This document shows, piece by piece, positions 10,491 to 16,950 of a stretch of DNA of 25,536 nt. The position numbers and the translations under genes are program-made. Origin of the DNA: a virus; the IMG/VR virus record IMGVR_UViG_3300034524_000148, positions 1 through 25,536 of that record; one strand, written 5' to 3'. The stretch's first letter is position 1. Every line of letters begins with the position of its first letter. The notes beneath the pieces were generated by a model, which searched no databases, was not told the origin of the DNA, and saw only the letters and a program-made list of their open reading frames with translations.

Positions 10491-11015
10491 ATGGATTTTG
10501 GGGCAAAAATTAAGCTAGAAAGAAAGCTTAAAAGCTACTGGAAATCGAAACAAAAGCTACAAAATTTACAAAGAACTTTAGAGAAAATTGATAAAGATAT
10601 AAGTACCTTGCGAGGCATTTTAGCTGAAAAAGATGAGCTAATACCTTCCCCCTTACAAATCAGTTTTACCCCAGGCGGTGGCCGGGGATATTCAGAGTTT
10701 ACTCCGGTTGAAAAATCAGTAGTAATGTATCAGGCCAACCAGGAAATACTTCAAAGAAAAATTGAACAGTTACGGCAAAAGAAGCTAAAAATCCAGTTGC
10801 GGATAATGTCAATCGAATATAGTACTGACATCTTTGATTATATTTCAAAAAATTACTTGGATGATGAAGAATTGGAAATCTTTGAACAATGTTATTTATA
10901 CTGCCGGAACAATATCCAGGTCGGAAAGGCTTTAAATTGTGATGAGTCCACAGTCCGGCGCAAACGGGAAAAAATCTTATCAGTTTTCAATGAGTTTTTA
11001 AAAATAAGAGCCTAA
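10491..11015 (+). CDS. ArpU/sigma-like phage late transcriptional regulator
   Basis: 174 aa. Two long coiled-coil segments (about 8-46 and 78-106) flank a Gly/Pro-rich loop (FTPGGGRGYSEF). The C-terminal part reads DDEELEIFEQCYLYCRNNIQ and CDESTVRRKREKILSVF, a sigma-70 region 4-like HTH. This layout is that of the ArpU/RinA-type proteins that control late genes of Gram-positive phages. Its place at the end of the replication region fits. The likely target is the repeat-bearing promoter at about 13166-13226. The start is preceded by AAGGGGGG. Family call moderate, since these regulators diverge quickly. Confidence 0.7.
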   Translation: MDFGAKIKLERKLKSYWKSKQKLQNLQRTLEKIDKDISTLRGILAEKDELIPSPLQISFTPGGGRGYSEFTPVEKSVVMYQANQEILQRKIEQLRQKKLKIQLRIMSIEYSTDIFDYISKNYLDDEELEIFEQCYLYCRNNIQVGKALNCDESTVRRKREKILSVFNEFLKIRA

Positions 11016-11034
11016 ATACGGGAGGTAACAAGAA

Positions 11035-11376
11035 ATGAATAGAAGTGAATTTTTAGAGATGTTAGAACCGGAACTTCAAAGCATAAAGGATTTATTTGCT
11101 TTTAAAAATACATCTTACGGCATGGATGATGATGTTTTTCACAATTTTAGAAATACGGCCTTGCGTGTTTTCGGAACTGATGATCATCAAATGATGCTAA
11201 AAGTATTAATGACATATATGGATAAACACCTGGTAGCAATAGTAAACAAGGGCCTATACGATAAGGAATACGAAAGCAGACTTAAAGATATAATTGTTTA
11301 TTCCTTACTAGCCATAGCAATGGGAAAAGATTTTGAAAGGGCTAAATTTGAAAGGTGTGAATTAAATGCTAAATAA
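11035..11376 (+). CDS. Nucleotide-modification-associated domain 1 (Nmad1/DUF1599)-like protein
   Basis: 113 aa, all-helical. The sequence KNTSYGMDDDVFHNFRNTAL resembles the K-N-x-x-YG...F-x-N-F motif of the Nmad1/DUF1599 family, which occurs in phages near base-modification or nucleotide-metabolism genes. Its biochemical role is unproven. It overlaps the following MazG-like gene by 11 bases, so the two probably act in the same nucleotide pathway. GGGAGG precedes the ATG. Confidence 0.6.
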   Translation: MNRSEFLEMLEPELQSIKDLFAFKNTSYGMDDDVFHNFRNTALRVFGTDDHQMMLKVLMTYMDKHLVAIVNKGLYDKEYESRLKDIIVYSLLAIAMGKDFERAKFERCELNAK

Positions 11377-11743
11377 ATTAAGAGATAAAATACACCAAAA
11401 CGCTGTAGAACATGGCTGGTGGGAAAAAGAAAGGAGTTTTGGCGAGATTATTGCCCTTTGTCACAGTGAATTGTCGGAAGCATTAGAGGAATACAGAAAT
11501 GGCAAACCAGATATATACTATAAAAAATGCGGAAGTCCTGAATGTAATTTTGGAATAAAATGCCATGAATGCGAAATACTTAAAGAGCAAAAACCCGAAG
11601 GCATCGCCATTGAACTCGCTGACTGCATTATCCGCATCTTGGACTATTGCGGTAAAGAAAATATTGACATTGAGAAAGCAATTAGACTAAAGCATGAATA
11701 CAACAAAACCCGCCCTTATAGGCATGGTGGGAAGGTAATTTGA
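11366..11743 (+). CDS. MazG-like nucleotide pyrophosphohydrolase with Cys4 insert
   Basis: 125 aa. The metal-binding helices of the all-alpha NTP pyrophosphatase fold are present: HSELSEALEEY (about 33-43, Glu35/Glu38) and ELADCIIRILDYCG (83-96, Glu83/Asp86). MazG-type enzymes hydrolyse (d)NTPs to monophosphate and pyrophosphate, trimming unusual nucleotides or lowering alarmones. Between the two helices there is an insert with four Cys (about 55, 60, 66, 69) that looks like an added zinc knuckle. It begins inside the preceding gene (11-base overlap). Substrate cannot be predicted. Confidence 0.8.
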   Translation: MLNKLRDKIHQNAVEHGWWEKERSFGEIIALCHSELSEALEEYRNGKPDIYYKKCGSPECNFGIKCHECEILKEQKPEGIAIELADCIIRILDYCGKENIDIEKAIRLKHEYNKTRPYRHGGKVI

Positions 11744-11754
11744 ACCCAGTGAGC

Positions 11755-11802
11755 CTCGTTCCGATGATTTTGGGTACCGGTTGGTATGAGGTACGGGGCG
11801 AG
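11755..11802 (+). other. Possible structured RNA between operon segments
   Basis: CTCGTTCCG (11755-11763) can pair with CGGGGCGAG (11794-11802) over nine positions including two G-U pairs. An inner GTACC (11774-11778) can pair with GGTAC (11790-11794), although the two stems compete for one base. No T-run follows. Nothing else occupies the 107 bases between the MazG-like gene and the next gene. Confidence 0.3.
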
Positions 11803-11850
11803 TGAGTGTTTAGATGTTGAGAAGAAAAAAGCATTGGAGGAGTGATACTA

Positions 11851-11997
11851 TTGGCCAGTAAGAAGGAGAGACGGTTAAAACGGTCACAACGAAATCACAG
11901 ACCTCTGAGCATAGAAACAAAAGCACGGATAGTAAAGCGGCCAAAAGACGACAAAATGAGCCCGGGTAAATTAATGGCCGTGGCGGAGTGGAGGTAA
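11851..11997 (+). CDS. Small, very basic hypothetical protein
   Basis: 48 aa from a TTG start, with TTGGAGGAGTG ending seven bases upstream. It is rich in Lys and Arg (ASKKERRLKRSQRNHR, then KARIVKRPKD) and ends EWR. The charge suggests nucleic-acid binding. The next gene's ribosome site (GGAGG) overlaps its end. No family is recognised. Confidence 0.5.
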   Translation: MASKKERRLKRSQRNHRPLSIETKARIVKRPKDDKMSPGKLMAVAEWR

Positions 11998-11998
11998 A

Positions 11999-12250
11999 AT
12001 GAAACAGTTAACTTTATTAGACTTGGACACTGATCTTATTGACGTTATTCAGTACGGTAAACAAACGAAAATCAATAAAAATGATATTAGGTTTTGCCGA
12101 ATAGAAAAAGGTTTTGATGGAACATTTGTTGTGTGTTTTACAAAAGAGGGTATCTATTTGCTGCCAATTGAGGACTTAACCAAACTGGAAAATAGGTGTA
12201 AGTTACTGGATGGGTCAAGGGATCCAGCAGTAATAAGGAGCATTTTGTAA
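11999..12250 (+). CDS. Hypothetical protein
   Basis: 83 aa with an acidic N-terminus (LTLLDLDTDLIDVIQYG) and a strand-rich middle (DGTFVVCFTKEGIYLLPIED). The ATG follows GTGGAGGTAAA within the end of the previous gene. It may be a small adaptor; no family or motif can be assigned. Confidence 0.55.
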   Translation: MKQLTLLDLDTDLIDVIQYGKQTKINKNDIRFCRIEKGFDGTFVVCFTKEGIYLLPIEDLTKLENRCKLLDGSRDPAVIRSIL

Positions 12251-12278
12251 ATTTTGTGAAGTAAGGAGGTAGTGAATA

Positions 12279-12701
12279 ATGGGTTTTATATGTAAGCATT
12301 TTGATGGAGAATCTTATTGCTATCACAAAGATGAATCTACAACAAAGCATGAATGTGAACATGAGTGTGAAATATCTGAGAAAGTTTCAGATGGCTATGA
12401 AGATTATACAGAAATTGAGAAAGAAATCTACAGGAATATGGAAAGTCTTAATGATGAAGATGGGTTGAATATGGGATGTTGGGTTAAAGGGCATTTTGAA
12501 ATTGAAACATTTAAAAAAATAGCAAAACATTGGCTTTGGTTTGAATATGATAAGTATATTGATTTAGATAGCAACAATTACAGAGTAAGGCAGGGTTACT
12601 TTAAGGCTACTCCAACAGGCGAGGATAGAAGAATGGTTTGGATATTCAAGAAAGAAAAAATTAGGGGTTCGATACCTGTTATGGAATTAGAAATGTTTTA
12701 G
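12279..12701 (+). CDS. Hypothetical protein with His/Cys-rich N-terminus
   Basis: 140 aa. The first 32 residues carry Cys and His in a zinc-finger-like spread (CKHFDGESYCYHKD, then HECEHECE). The rest is mixed alpha/beta with aromatic residues (HWLWFEYDKYIDL, then GEDRRMVWIFKKEK). Start by AAGGAGGTAGTGAATA-ATG. It is part of the accessory gene string before the late control region. No known family. Confidence 0.6.
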   Translation: MGFICKHFDGESYCYHKDESTTKHECEHECEISEKVSDGYEDYTEIEKEIYRNMESLNDEDGLNMGCWVKGHFEIETFKKIAKHWLWFEYDKYIDLDSNNYRVRQGYFKATPTGEDRRMVWIFKKEKIRGSIPVMELEMF

Positions 12702-12739
12702 TACGCATTTCAACCATTTAATGAAGGATGGAGTTTTAA

Positions 12740-12940
12740 ATGATAATTAAATATTTAAGTTGTGATGGATATTTGGTCGAAGAAAAGGTTGATAAGATAG
12801 ACTTTGTTGTTATTCGCGATAATGAAGATATTGAATTGGTTTGTCAAAGGTCAATAGACAACCCTCTTTATGATGCAAATGACGGTTTTGAGGGGAAATT
12901 TTATATTTCTGCTAGTTCAGTAGATTGTATTAAAGATTAA
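12740..12940 (+). CDS. Small hypothetical protein
   Basis: 66 aa, acidic, with alternating strands (IKYLSCDGYLVEEKVDKIDF and FVVIRDNEDIELV). GAAGGATGGAG is 10 to 12 bases before the ATG. No family is recognised. Confidence 0.5.
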   Translation: MIIKYLSCDGYLVEEKVDKIDFVVIRDNEDIELVCQRSIDNPLYDANDGFEGKFYISASSVDCIKD

Positions 12941-12975
12941 TTTATTCTTCTTTAGAAGGAAAGAGGTTGATTAAG

Positions 12976-13164
12976 TTGGATAAATGTCCAATAAAACCTT
13001 GTGATAAAGAAAAGTGTGGCTGGTGGGACAAAAGGATAGGTGTTTGTGGTTATGACTGGGAACACGGAGAATATTGTCCAAAATGCGGGGCCAGTTTGTT
13101 AAAAAATAATTATGATGTTGAATGCTCATTTACCGGTTGCGATTATAGTAAAAAGTTTGAATAA
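12976..13164 (+). CDS. Zinc-ribbon protein, last gene before the late control region
   Basis: 62 aa with many Cys: CPIKPC and CGWW near the start, then CPKC and a C-terminal C....C pair. The central YCPKCGASL is a typical zinc-ribbon knuckle. The TTG at 12976 is preferred with AGAGGT upstream; a TTG at 12967 overlaps that site. Its stop lies two bases before the TTGACT of the putative late promoter. Function unknown. Confidence 0.65.
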   Translation: MDKCPIKPCDKEKCGWWDKRIGVCGYDWEHGEYCPKCGASLLKNNYDVECSFTGCDYSKKFE

Positions 13165-13165
13165 A

Positions 13166-13226
13166 TTGACTATGCCGAATTTTCGCCGAATAATCGCCGA
13201 AAAAAGTCAGTATATTTTGATAGAAT
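13166..13226 (+). promoter_or_regulatory. Putative late promoter with three 11-bp-spaced GCCGAA repeats
   Basis: GCCGAA occurs at 13174-13179, 13185-13190 and 13196-13201, exactly 11 bases apart, about one helical turn, so the repeats lie on one face of the DNA. A TAGAAT -10-like hexamer follows at 13221-13226, with no good -35 at the usual distance (TTGACT at 13166 is far upstream). This is the arrangement expected for an activator-dependent promoter. The candidate activator is the ArpU/sigma-like protein encoded at 10491-11015. Confidence 0.65.
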
Positions 13227-13264
13227 GTACATGATAAGACATTTATATAGAGAAAACATGACAA

Positions 13265-13287
13265 AGACAGTCCGTATTGGGCTGTCT
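13265..13287 (+). terminator. Hairpin 1 in the late leader (terminator-like)
   Basis: AGACAGTCC pairs with GGGCTGTCT (nine pairs, one G-U) around the loop GTATT. It is followed by ATTTAATTTA, a poor T-run, so termination would be weak. It lies about 40 bases into the putative late transcript. Between it and hairpin 2, TTGCCT (13312-13317) and AGGCAA (13337-13342) form another possible stem. Confidence 0.5.
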
Positions 13288-13388
13288 ATTTAATTTATAA
13301 AAGGTAGGTGGTTGCCTATGATTGTGTGAAAAACTGAGGCAAATCCGAAAACATAAGCTACTTCATCCAAATTATTCAATTTGTCTTT

Positions 13389-13415
13389 AATGCGGTCTCA
13401 CCAACCGCATTTTTT
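13389..13415 (+). terminator. Hairpin 2 in the late leader (intrinsic terminator)
   Basis: AATGCGGT (13389-13396) pairs with ACCGCATT (13404-13411) around CTCACCA, and a run of six T ends the element at 13415. This is a good rho-independent terminator, yet it stands upstream of the 57-aa gene, the recombinase and the terminase with no complete gene before it in the transcript. That points to attenuation or antitermination of the late operon. Confidence 0.7.
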
Positions 13416-13459
13416 GGAAAAGCGGTAGGCGTTTATCGAGTTCGAGTCTCGACTTTTCC
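13416..13459 (+). other. tRNA-like minimal fold (acceptor stem plus T-arm)
   Basis: GGAAAAG (13416-13422) pairs perfectly with CTTTTCC (13453-13459) as a 7-bp acceptor-like stem. Inside it TCGAG-TTCGAGT-CTCGA (13436-13452) is a canonical T-arm with a consensus T-loop. Only 13 bases separate the two stems, so D and anticodon arms are missing; CGGTAGGCG there resembles a D-loop remnant. No CCA follows. It could be a tRNA fragment (such as an attachment-site core), a relic, or a functional tRNA-like RNA signal in the late leader. Confidence 0.5.
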
Positions 13460-13676: not shown

Positions 13677-14264
13677 ATGAATACTGTTGAGCCTATAAGG
13701 GATAAAAAATTGGTCAACGATATTGCCGAATATTTAAGAATAAGAAGTGAGCGTAATTTTGTTATGTTTGTATTCGGTATATATTCTGGATTGAGGATAT
13801 CAGATATTTTAGAACAAAGAGTAAGAGATGTTAGAGACGCTAATGGTAAAATCAAAAGTCATATTTATATACGTGAGAAAAAAACAGGTAAAGAAAAAAG
13901 GTTTGTTATTAATGATGAACTTAAAGATGTATTACAAGAATATGTCCAAGATAAACCTGGCTATGAATATCTTTTTAAGTCAAGAAAAGGTTTAAATAAA
14001 CCAATAACTCGTGAATATGCATATCAAATACTTCGTGATGCAGCTCAAGCCTTTGGACTTGAAAGCATAGGGACTCATACAATGAGAAAAACATTTGGCT
14101 ATCATCTGTACCAGGAAACAAAAGATGCTGTATCATTACAAAAGATATTCAACCATAGCCATGTTTCAATAACTTTATTATATATTGGTGTTACTCAGGA
14201 TATGAAAGATAATATGGTTAAAAAGTTAAGTTTTAAATTAAATACAAGGAAAAAACGGAAATAA
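13677..14264 (+). CDS. Tyrosine recombinase, catalytic domain only
   Basis: 195 aa. All catalytic residues of the lambda-Int/Xer family are in place: Arg40 (SGLRISDIL), a beta-hairpin Lys near 68-72, His134-x-x-Arg137 (THTMRKTFG), His160 (FNHSH) and Tyr169 (LLYIGV). The N-terminal core-binding (SAM-like) and arm-binding domains of phage integrases are missing, so it resembles the short FimB/FimE type of invertase or the short recombinases often found before the terminase in Clostridia phages. Its place just downstream of the late promoter argues against a role in initial integration. Dimer resolution, inversion or late gene control are possible. Confidence 0.85.
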   Translation: MNTVEPIRDKKLVNDIAEYLRIRSERNFVMFVFGIYSGLRISDILEQRVRDVRDANGKIKSHIYIREKKTGKEKRFVINDELKDVLQEYVQDKPGYEYLFKSRKGLNKPITREYAYQILRDAAQAFGLESIGTHTMRKTFGYHLYQETKDAVSLQKIFNHSHVSITLLYIGVTQDMKDNMVKKLSFKLNTRKKRK

Positions 14265-14540
14265 ATATTTCGTATTTTTTAAATATAACATAATTTAAAA
14301 GTGTAAGATTAGTTAAGTATTTTTGAGTGATATATATAGGAAGGGAAATTATAAAATGAATATTACATAATATTAAGATATGTGAGATTAGAAATGTAAA
14401 TTTATGACTATTGATATACATAGGTTCTTCTGAAACTTTCTCTAAGGTGCGGGTCTTGCGAGGCCCAAAATCTATTCAGTTACAGAGTTTTTTTTAGTGC
14501 CGTTTCCTTTACCAGGAAAACATTTAATTGAGGTGCGAAA
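14265..14540. other. Non-coding, AT-rich region with hairpins before the terminase
   Basis: No gene is seen in these 276 bases. The first ~160 are AT-rich and featureless. Then come a hairpin GGGTCT-TGCG-AGGCCC (14451-14466), an eight-T run (14488-14495) preceded by AGAG that can pair with CTCT at about 14440-14443, and a hairpin TTTCCT/AGGAAA (14503-14519). The terminase start follows GAGGTGCGAAA. The location just upstream of terS is where lambda-like phages carry cos, so a cos or pac site may lie here; a terminator for the recombinase transcript is also possible. Confidence 0.45.
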
Positions 14541-15107
14541 ATGAAAAAACCAAAGGTTGAGGATATAAGTTCAGTTGTTGTGCCCGCCAAAGTATTATCT
14601 GATGTTATTGGTGTTTCAGAGAGAAGAATTAGACAGCTGGCTGAAGAAGGAATTTTAGTTAAAACTTCAAGGGGTAGATATAGTTTTGGTGAGAGTGTTA
14701 AAAACTATATTGTTTATTTAAAAACAACCTCTGACTTAGAAACTACTAATATAATAAAGCTCGATCTGGATGAAGAAAGAGCGAAGCATGAAAGACTAAA
14801 GAGAGAAAAAACTCAATTGCAATTAAAAGTTATGAAAGCCGAGTTGCATTATTCAGGAGATGTTGAGGTTGTAATGAATGATATGTTATCAAATTTTAGA
14901 GCAAAAATTATTGGTTTACCAGCAAAGGTTGCACCAATATTAATTTCTAAAAACAAAGTATCTGATATACAGGAAATTTTACAAAAACAATGTTACGAAG
15001 TATTGGAAGAGTTATCAAATTATGACCCTAAATTGTTTTATAACGATAAGTGCATAGACTTTGAGGAAGATTTAGAAGAAGGTGGAGGCGGTGAAGAAGG
15101 AACATAA
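14541..15107 (+). CDS. terS: Terminase small subunit, Nu1-like
   Basis: 188 aa. The N-terminus has a winged-helix/MerR-like HTH (VPAKVLSDVIGVSERRIRQL, EEGILVKTSRGRYSF), as in lambda Nu1, used to recognise the packaging site. The middle helix LDEERAKHERLKREKTQLQL is a dimerisation coiled coil, and the C-terminus is acidic (FEEDLEEGGGGEE), the likely contact with the large subunit. Its end overlaps the large subunit gene by 26 bases. GAGGTG precedes the ATG. Confidence 0.88.
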   Translation: MKKPKVEDISSVVVPAKVLSDVIGVSERRIRQLAEEGILVKTSRGRYSFGESVKNYIVYLKTTSDLETTNIIKLDLDEERAKHERLKREKTQLQLKVMKAELHYSGDVEVVMNDMLSNFRAKIIGLPAKVAPILISKNKVSDIQEILQKQCYEVLEELSNYDPKLFYNDKCIDFEEDLEEGGGGEEGT

Positions 15108-16950
15108 AATAAAATTAAAAACCCTTGAATTGTTCAGAGATATAGCAAAAATAATGGCCCCTCCCCCAGATTTGACTGTTTCACAGTGGGCTGATAAATA
15201 TAGAGTACTATCCCCTGAGTCGTCTTCGGAATCAGGGCGATGGAATACAGACCGAGCTCCATATCAGCGTGAGATTATGGATGCAGCTAGTGATCCGGAA
15301 GTTGATACTGTTGTAATTATGAGTAGTGCCCAGGTAGGGAAGACAGAAATTATCAATAATATAATTGGCTATCATATTGATTATGACCCTTGTCCAATGT
15401 TGCTTGTTATGCCTACGGATACACTAGCAAAAACTTGGTCAAAAAAACGTCTATCACCAATGATTAGAGATACTCCTGCTTTACACGATAAAATAAAAGA
15501 TGCAAAAAGCAGGGATAGCGATAATACCATATTAGAAAAGGGTTTCCCGGGTGGTTACATTGCAATAGTAGGAGCCAATTCCCCTGTAGGCCTTTCATCG
15601 AGACCGATTAGGATTGTTTTAGCGGATGAAGTTGATAGGTTTCCTCCATCTGCTGGTAAAGAAGGAGATCCACTGAGTCTTGCTGTAAAAAGGACAGCAA
15701 CTTATTGGAATAAAAAGAAAATATTCGTGTCAACTCCAACAGAAGTAGGAATTTCAAGGATAGAGAAGGAATTTAGTACAAGCTCGCAAGAAGAATGGAA
15801 TTTGCCATGTCCTTTATGTGGAAAATATCAACCTATTGATTGGGACCGCATCAAATTTCAAAAGATAGATGAAAAAGGAACAGACGTTACAGATGTAACA
15901 ATGGAATGCAAATTTTGTAAAGAAAATTTTAATGAATTTGAATGGAAAGAAATGAGTAGTCAAGGGAAGTGGATCCCCAAAAAAGAAGGAGTAAAGGATA
16001 AAAGAGGCTTTCATTTAAATGCTTTTGTTTCTCCTTGGGAACGTTGGGAAGAAATAATTAAAAATTTCCTTGAAGCCAAAAGGAATGGAAAAGAAACTTT
16101 AAAAACTTGGGTAAACACATACCTTGGACAACCATGGGAAGATGATGAAGGAGAAACCTTAGAACATGAAGTCTTAATTAAAAGAAGAGAAGCCTATAAT
16201 TGTCAAGTACCAGATGGTGTCCTTGTTTTAACAGCCGGTGTAGACGTCCAAGATGATCGTATAGAAATAGAAGTAGTAGGATGGGGAAAAGATAAAGAAT
16301 CATGGGGGATAGAATATAAAAAAATTTATGGCAACTTAGAACAACCGGAAATATGGAAAGAACTAGATGAGTATTTATCTAGTTCTTTTTATTTTAATGA
16401 CGGCAGCATCATTAATATTTCCTGTACCTGTATTGATACAGGGGGCCATTATACTAACGAAACTTATAAATTTATAAAGCCAAGAGAAATTAGAAGGATA
16501 TTTGGAATAAAAGGTTATGCCGGCTTTGATAAACCGGTGATTGGTAAACCAAGTAAAAATAACAGAGAGAAAATTAATCTATTTCCCATAGGGGTAGATA
16601 TTTTAAAGGATAGAGTATATGCGAGATTAAAGGAAGATTTTGAGGGTCCAGGGTATTCACATTTTCCAATTGAGAGCGAAAAGGGATATGATGAGGAATA
16701 TTTTAAAAGTCTATGCTCTGAAAAGAAAGTAACAAAATATTCTAAAGGTGTTGCATCTTTTCGATGGATTAAAAAAAGAAAAAGAAATGAAGGTTTAGAC
16801 TTAAGAAATTATGCAACAGCCGCATTGGAAATTTTGAATCCAAAATTTGAGATCCTTGAAAAGATGAAGAAAAATGGCATGTTAAATAATCAAAACAAAA
16901 AAACATCTAATGTGAAAAAGAGGAGAGTAATATCAAAAGGAGTCCAGTAG
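15082..16950 (+). CDS. terL: Terminase large subunit, lambda GpA family
   Basis: 622 aa, full length for GpA. The N-terminal ATPase has WADKYRVLSPESS, a Walker A-like SSAQVGKT (about 81-88) and Walker B IVLADEVD (about 178-185). A treble-clef-like four-Cys site lies at CPLCGKYQ...CKFC. The C-terminal nuclease starts at GVDVQDDRIEIEVVGWGKD and continues with CIDTGGHYTN and GVDILKDRVYARLK, including acidic metal ligands. It cuts concatemers and pumps DNA into the prohead. The start is ambiguous between GTG 15082 and GTG 15091. GpA family membership suggests cos-type packaging. Confidence 0.96.
   Translation: MEAVKKEHKIKLKTLELFRDIAKIMAPPPDLTVSQWADKYRVLSPESSSESGRWNTDRAPYQREIMDAASDPEVDTVVIMSSAQVGKTEIINNIIGYHIDYDPCPMLLVMPTDTLAKTWSKKRLSPMIRDTPALHDKIKDAKSRDSDNTILEKGFPGGYIAIVGANSPVGLSSRPIRIVLADEVDRFPPSAGKEGDPLSLAVKRTATYWNKKKIFVSTPTEVGISRIEKEFSTSSQEEWNLPCPLCGKYQPIDWDRIKFQKIDEKGTDVTDVTMECKFCKENFNEFEWKEMSSQGKWIPKKEGVKDKRGFHLNAFVSPWERWEEIIKNFLEAKRNGKETLKTWVNTYLGQPWEDDEGETLEHEVLIKRREAYNCQVPDGVLVLTAGVDVQDDRIEIEVVGWGKDKESWGIEYKKIYGNLEQPEIWKELDEYLSSSFYFNDGSIINISCTCIDTGGHYTNETYKFIKPREIRRIFGIKGYAGFDKPVIGKPSKNNREKINLFPIGVDILKDRVYARLKEDFEGPGYSHFPIESEKGYDEEYFKSLCSEKKVTKYSKGVASFRWIKKRKRNEGLDLRNYATAALEILNPKFEILEKMKKNGMLNNQNKKTSNVKKRRVISKGVQ

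Follow-up and report, generated by a model that had tools for sequence, protein, structure and literature searches.

A GCCGAA array at 11-bp steps as the probable target of an ArpU/RinA-like late regulator in a temperate-type phage

Results

Organization of the locus

The window, i.e. the whole stretch of DNA that was analysed, is a 25.5-kb virus record and holds an AT-rich (about 35% GC) fragment of a temperate-type phage. The early module closes with the regulator gene, which lies 3.5 kb upstream of terS on the same strand and is not immediately adjacent to it; the late genes start with the terminase genes. The features of the locus are listed below.

10491..11015, + strand: ArpU/RinA-like late regulator gene (174 aa)
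11016..13164, + strand: small genes between the regulator gene and the array (phrog_6802, MazG-like pyrophosphatase and others)
13166..13194, + strand: promoter-like TTGACT-17-AATAAT that overlaps the array (a match within chance)
13174..13201, + strand: GCCGAA x3 at 11-bp steps, proposed regulator binding array
13221..13226, + strand: -10 hexamer TAGAAT, extended by TG; its first base is 25 bases from the start of the final repeat
13265..13287, + strand: terminator-like hairpin with U-rich tail, ~33 nt past the predicted start and 64 nt past the array
13391..13409, + strand: second terminator-like hairpin, TGCGGT-loop-ACCGCA followed by T6
13677..14264, + strand: small tyrosine recombinase (phrog_216), a common neighbour of such arrays
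14541..16950, + strand: terminase small (14541-15107) and large (15082-16950) subunits (phrog_57, E 2.5e-29; TerL relatives)

Since window positions 12262-12705 did not align to the 99% copy (L020), the genes between regulator and array are exchangeable. A tRNA-like fragment with an acceptor-like GGAAAAG/CTTTTCC pair and the T-arm TCGAGTTCGAGTCTCGA was observed at 13416-13459, between the proposed late promoter and terS, its T-arm-like match being the only one in the window; two ARAGORN tRNA calls were obtained at the matching place of phage TP901-1. Adjoining terS, a cos-like stretch (14440-14515) carries CCGTTTCCTTTACC, which we take to resemble the lambda cosB R sites, and is conserved in locus L041. 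The GCCGAA array itself was also considered as a cos-type terminase site and this reading was rejected, because the cos-like stretch by terS is shared with L041, which has no GCCGAA repeats there. TerL of L041 (6518-9574) is interrupted in frame, apparently by an intein (1018 aa vs 622 aa).

The GCCGAA array and its -10 element

Three copies of GCCGAA were located at 13174-13179, 13185-13190 and 13196-13201 on the + strand, in the exact 11-bp steps that an earlier note on this DNA had described. The whole window was scanned for any core word at equal spacing (7 to 40 bp), and at spacing 11 no triplicate exact hexamer but this one turned up; one other was detected, at spacing 23. Simulated windows with the same first-order composition gave 0.017 spacing-11 triplicate hexamers per window. 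The repeats lie just upstream of TTTTGATAGAATG, which holds an extended -10 (TGaTAGAAT), the hexamer TAGAAT at 13221-13226 having TG just 5' of it (TTTTGATAGAAT). No family was matched in a search against Rfam.

The earlier note had also taken the repeats to replace a normal -35 at the only promoter-like site before the late genes. The order of array and then -10 agrees with such a replacement, but a canonical TTGACT-17-AATAAT match overlaps the array, within what chance would give. The site is not the only one, as a promoter consensus scan of a 5.2-kb stretch yielded 23 matches against 21.4 +/- 3.9 expected by chance. It does precede the late genes, but the tyrosine recombinase gene and two terminator-like hairpins come before terS (14541).

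The regulator protein

An ArpU/sigma-like gene had been claimed upstream, and the product of the ORF at 10491-11015 indeed matched PHROG 36 (transcriptional regulator) with an E value of 3.7e-13. Against the NCBI RinA model TIGR01636 it scored 21.2 bits, below the cut-off of 31.9, and sigma-70 models also matched below their cut-offs. When a profile of 34 family members was compared with the PDB, sigma factors were obtained, the best being FliA (1rp3, 4.3e-8), over region 4. The AlphaFold model (mean pLDDT 83.8) consists of a long helical hairpin or coiled coil followed by a C-terminal HTH; this C-terminus superposes on region 4 of SigF (8jzt) at 0.8 A over 55-58 columns, with a whole-model E value of only ~1. 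The recognition helix lies around DESTVRRKREKI. Like members of the ArpU/RinA/Ltr group, the protein is small and mostly helical with a C-terminal sigma-region-4-like HTH.

Beyond the one 99% copy no close relatives of the regulator were found. A tblastn search of annotated phages gave no match, and bacterial genomes held no close relatives of either the regulator or TerL. The protein evolves fast. The regulator of L041 is 30% identical to that of the window, and its array word differs (TGGGAC).

Search for GCCGAA repeats in other phages

The search for GCCGAA itself that the earlier note had suggested proved unworkable. Among 37 viral contigs with GCCGAA x3 at 11 bp, one was the 99% copy and the rest were unrelated tandem or coding repeats, while a search for AT-spacer variants returned eight further contigs, unrelated by inspection. 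The only copy (L020) shows no difference from the window across 760 bp surrounding the array, and as no other genome with a close regulator relative was found, the pair of GCCGAA and regulator stands without an independent replicate. The search presumably fails because GCCGAA goes with this regulator in particular; the conserved feature is the spacing, not the word.

A GC-rich phage group, Gram-negative by appearance, has four GCGCCGA(A/G) words at 11-bp steps (L021:1248-1287, and the equivalent place in L006, L009, L013, L014, L018, L026, L031 and L033). This array spans the 3' end of a phrog_4300 gene (function unknown), ~0.7 kb upstream of terS. The layout is again gene and then array, with an unrelated protein that is possibly an undescribed late regulator.

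Period-11 arrays in relatives

The comparison set consisted of 81 loci, namely 80 phage loci found via the small tyrosine recombinase plus L041. Triplicate hexamers with period 11 were present in 21/81 loci, and each other period (7-19) occurred in 0-4. Array words included GCCGAA, TGTGAA, ATGTC, GTACT, CGAACTTTT, TTGGCA, TGGGAC and others. A phrog_36 protein was encoded in 57 of the 80 recombinase-locus records, those without one being mostly short fragments.

Many arrays start no more than ~20 bp from the stop codon of the ArpU-like gene, and others lie ~1-3 kb downstream. The window array, 2.2 kb from its regulator gene, is unlike most relatives in this respect, and no array was found around the regulator stop codon (10950-11400). 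A position at the stop codon does not define the group, however, since in 21 of the loci examined the distance is 1-3 kb.

A second set comprised 18 regulators not used in finding the pattern and mostly from other phages (11 loci of annotated ArpU phages, five new viral loci and two phages that have been characterised). In the interval from -60 to +150 around the stop codon, a period-11 triple was found for 8/18 regulators against 0.015 in shuffles, three of the 18 not being independent since Javan427, MissG1 and phiARI0578 share one regulator; other periods gave 0 everywhere except period 22 (2). Period-11 arrays accompanied ArpU/RinA-like genes in both sets. In Geobacillus phage PK5.2 the array begins 22 bp after the ArpU gene, and in GBSV1, NIIg3.2 and phiOH2 a near-identical word of the PK5.2 type lies 1.7-2.6 kb from the regulator, before HNH or terminase genes, so that the 2.2-kb separation in the window has precedents.

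In 13/21 arrays, a hexamer matching TATAAT in at least five of six positions began 25-31 bases downstream of the first base of the last word, compared with 3.1 +/- 1.6 in shuffles (p <= 5e-4). This distance would place the last word at about -40 to -32, the usual seat of sigma region 4.

In L049, L054, L055 and L045, ATGTCG words at 12-bp steps were observed ~145-165 bp upstream of the recombinase; in L049, L054 and L055 this is a second array, beside an 11-bp TGTGAA array.

Array word and recognition helix

Similarity between array words was correlated with similarity between recognition helices (Mantel r 0.59, p 2e-4), also when recombinase similarity was controlled for (0.40, p 2e-4). After near-identical pairs were removed, the value for the helix was 0.36 (p 2e-4), and that for the recombinase given the helix was 0.10 (p 0.11). 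L079 and L082 have recombinases that are 86% identical, helices that are 42% identical, and the words ATGTC and GTACT, respectively, whereas L085 and the later-found L139 share both the SERQ helix start and the word ATGTCCGA. The word therefore seems to track the recognition helix, as a correlation from which the partial test removes shared ancestry only in part. Such co-variation offers natural specificity switches (L079/L082).

Terminator-like hairpins after the arrays

An intrinsic-terminator-like hairpin with a U-rich tail was found 15-215 nt past the array, mostly at 45-93 nt, in 32/36 cases when one mismatch and longer loops were allowed, against a background of 5.7% and 3/36 on the opposite strand of the array stretches. 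With the strict terminator definition the count was 11/36 against a background of 3.3%, so the result holds under both definitions. A hairpin upstream of the array was rare (3/36). Where array and regulator lie apart, the hairpin came after the array in 20 of 21 loci and after the regulator gene in one, though most of these loci come from two groups of close relatives, with the words CGAACTTTT and TTGGCA, and are not independent. The hairpin goes with the array, not with the regulator gene. RNAfold gave -14.5 kcal/mol for window positions 13233-13300, which include the hairpin at 13265-13287.

Discussion

The sequence shows the array, its -10 element, a regulator of this family and fold, and the repeated occurrence of such an arrangement in relatives. 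We consider it likely that the phage's own ArpU/RinA-like regulator binds in tandem at GCCGAA x3 and would thereby switch on the late genes. Regulator protomers would sit at 11-bp intervals along nearly the same helix face, and the last word would fall between about -37 and -32 from the predicted start site. Their sigma-region-4-like domains would replace the missing -35 contact, and host sigma-A RNA polymerase would be recruited or activated at TGaTAGAAT, the extended -10. The genes for packaging, head and tail would be transcribed from this promoter, and RNA polymerase would have to pass the terminator-like hairpin just inside the transcribed region. Binding, activation and the reading of the GCCGAA word by this particular regulator are inferred. 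The regulator-target pairing put forward in the earlier note gains support from the period-11 arrays beside ArpU/RinA-like genes, the co-variation of word and helix, and the fixed distance to the -10; its reading of the helical phasing as several bound protomers is likewise favoured by the comparative evidence.

Two terminator-like hairpins stand between the array and terS, as would be expected if the array activated only a short leader or a small RNA that stops at the hairpin, with the late genes transcribed from a promoter nearer terS. We regard this as unlikely: phi11 has a matching hairpin layout, and according to PMC13123087 the late transcript is reported to be driven in full by the repeat-bearing late promoters of phi13 and RinA. 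An RNA ending at 13265-13287 is also part of a reading in which the array is a repressor operator over the sigma-A promoter TTGACT-17-AATAAT (13166-13194), a 10/12 match that overlaps all three words. Such an operator seems quite unlikely, since promoter-like matches in the 5.2-kb stretch are at chance level (23 vs 21.4), no equivalent -35 is apparent in most relatives inspected while the downstream -10 offset is conserved, and Alt and RinA, the relatives that have been characterised, both act as activators according to PMC13123087.

The array might instead be the binding site of a different protein, such as the small tyrosine recombinase encoded next to it, with a role in recombination rather than transcription. 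This enzyme is encoded by the nearest gene of known type, and it was also through it that the arrays had come to light. We hold its involvement to be very unlikely, because without close pairs it is the ArpU helix, and not the recombinase, that array similarity follows, because the arrays of TP901-1 and phi11 have no annotated recombinase in the stretch examined, and because a -10 and a terminator come after the arrays. Binding by the ArpU/RinA-like regulator remains the preferred reading.

The position of the hairpin bears on how such a regulator may act. One would expect a terminator that solely ended early transcription to lie upstream of the late promoter, and here late transcripts must pass it. 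At lambda pR'/tR', an activator site upstream of the -10, a short leader and a terminator precede the late genes, and Q carries polymerase through. The hairpin past the late promoter in the window and its relatives gives the same layout. It is conceivable, though we put it forward tentatively, that ArpU/RinA/Alt-type regulators are both activators and Q-like antiterminators that would carry RNA polymerase through a terminator 45-93 nt on from the 11-bp array and -10, so that array, -10, leader and terminator would form one portable late-control cassette with its word set by the recognition helix. The antitermination part is our reading of the layout, and no paper on antitermination by RinA was found among the papers searched. 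This cassette is a more interesting result than a new word. As a terminator recurs just inside the late unit, the use of lambda-Q-like antitermination for late genes in Gram-positive phages can be tested directly. For late promoters without a known motif, the arrangement also offers a rule, namely any 11-bp-repeated word, then a -10, then a hairpin, by which late regulators can be assigned in poorly known phages.

Comparison with known systems

The earlier note knew of no published motif of this form, which does not stand: TP901-1 Alt and phi11 RinA are reported to bind repeats, and an 11-bp period can be read in both. Pedersen 2006, Ferrer 2011 and Quiles-Puchalt 2013 may already state this period. 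For Alt of Lactococcus phage TP901-1, binding to imperfect direct repeats, four in number and lying between -76 and -32, is reported (cited in PMC13123087). In the TP901-1 sequence (L130) the repeats lie at 492-537 and were read as 11 bp each. As in the window, a late activator gene is followed by 11-bp tandem repeats (TGGGTCAAATT/GGGATAAAAAC/GACACGAAAAA/GGCACGAAATT) and then a -10; unlike in the window, the word is another one, the cores are four and imperfect instead of three and perfect, the array comes directly after the gene and lies further from the -10 (offset 37), and within 215 nt there are tRNA-like genes and no hairpin.

RinA of Staphylococcus phage phi11, which reportedly binds a repeat region upstream of terS (PMC9867676), is likewise a sigma-4-like helical regulator. 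TGGCAG x2 at 11 bp is followed by a -10 (TATTAT/TATGAT) at offset 27-30 and a terminator-like hairpin at +92, but there are two words of another core, located at the rinA stop codon. The late promoter of phage phi13 also lies downstream of its regulator gene and needs direct repeats, which differ in being three 18-bp units (65 bp in all); its activator Ltr is not homologous to RinA by sequence (PMC13123087). The ArpU-family regulators of Geobacillus PK5.2/GBSV1 share with the window an 11-bp array (TGACRGAAAA), a -10 and a terminator, the cassette of GBSV1 being 1.7 kb from the regulator, and differ in the word and its five copies. As for lambda Q/pR'/tR', the window also has terminators (13265-13287 and 13391-13409) between late promoter and late genes, but no match to any Q family was found in the searches of Pfam and PHROGs. 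The system of the window is a member of the known Alt/RinA/ArpU kind of late promoter, with a new word.
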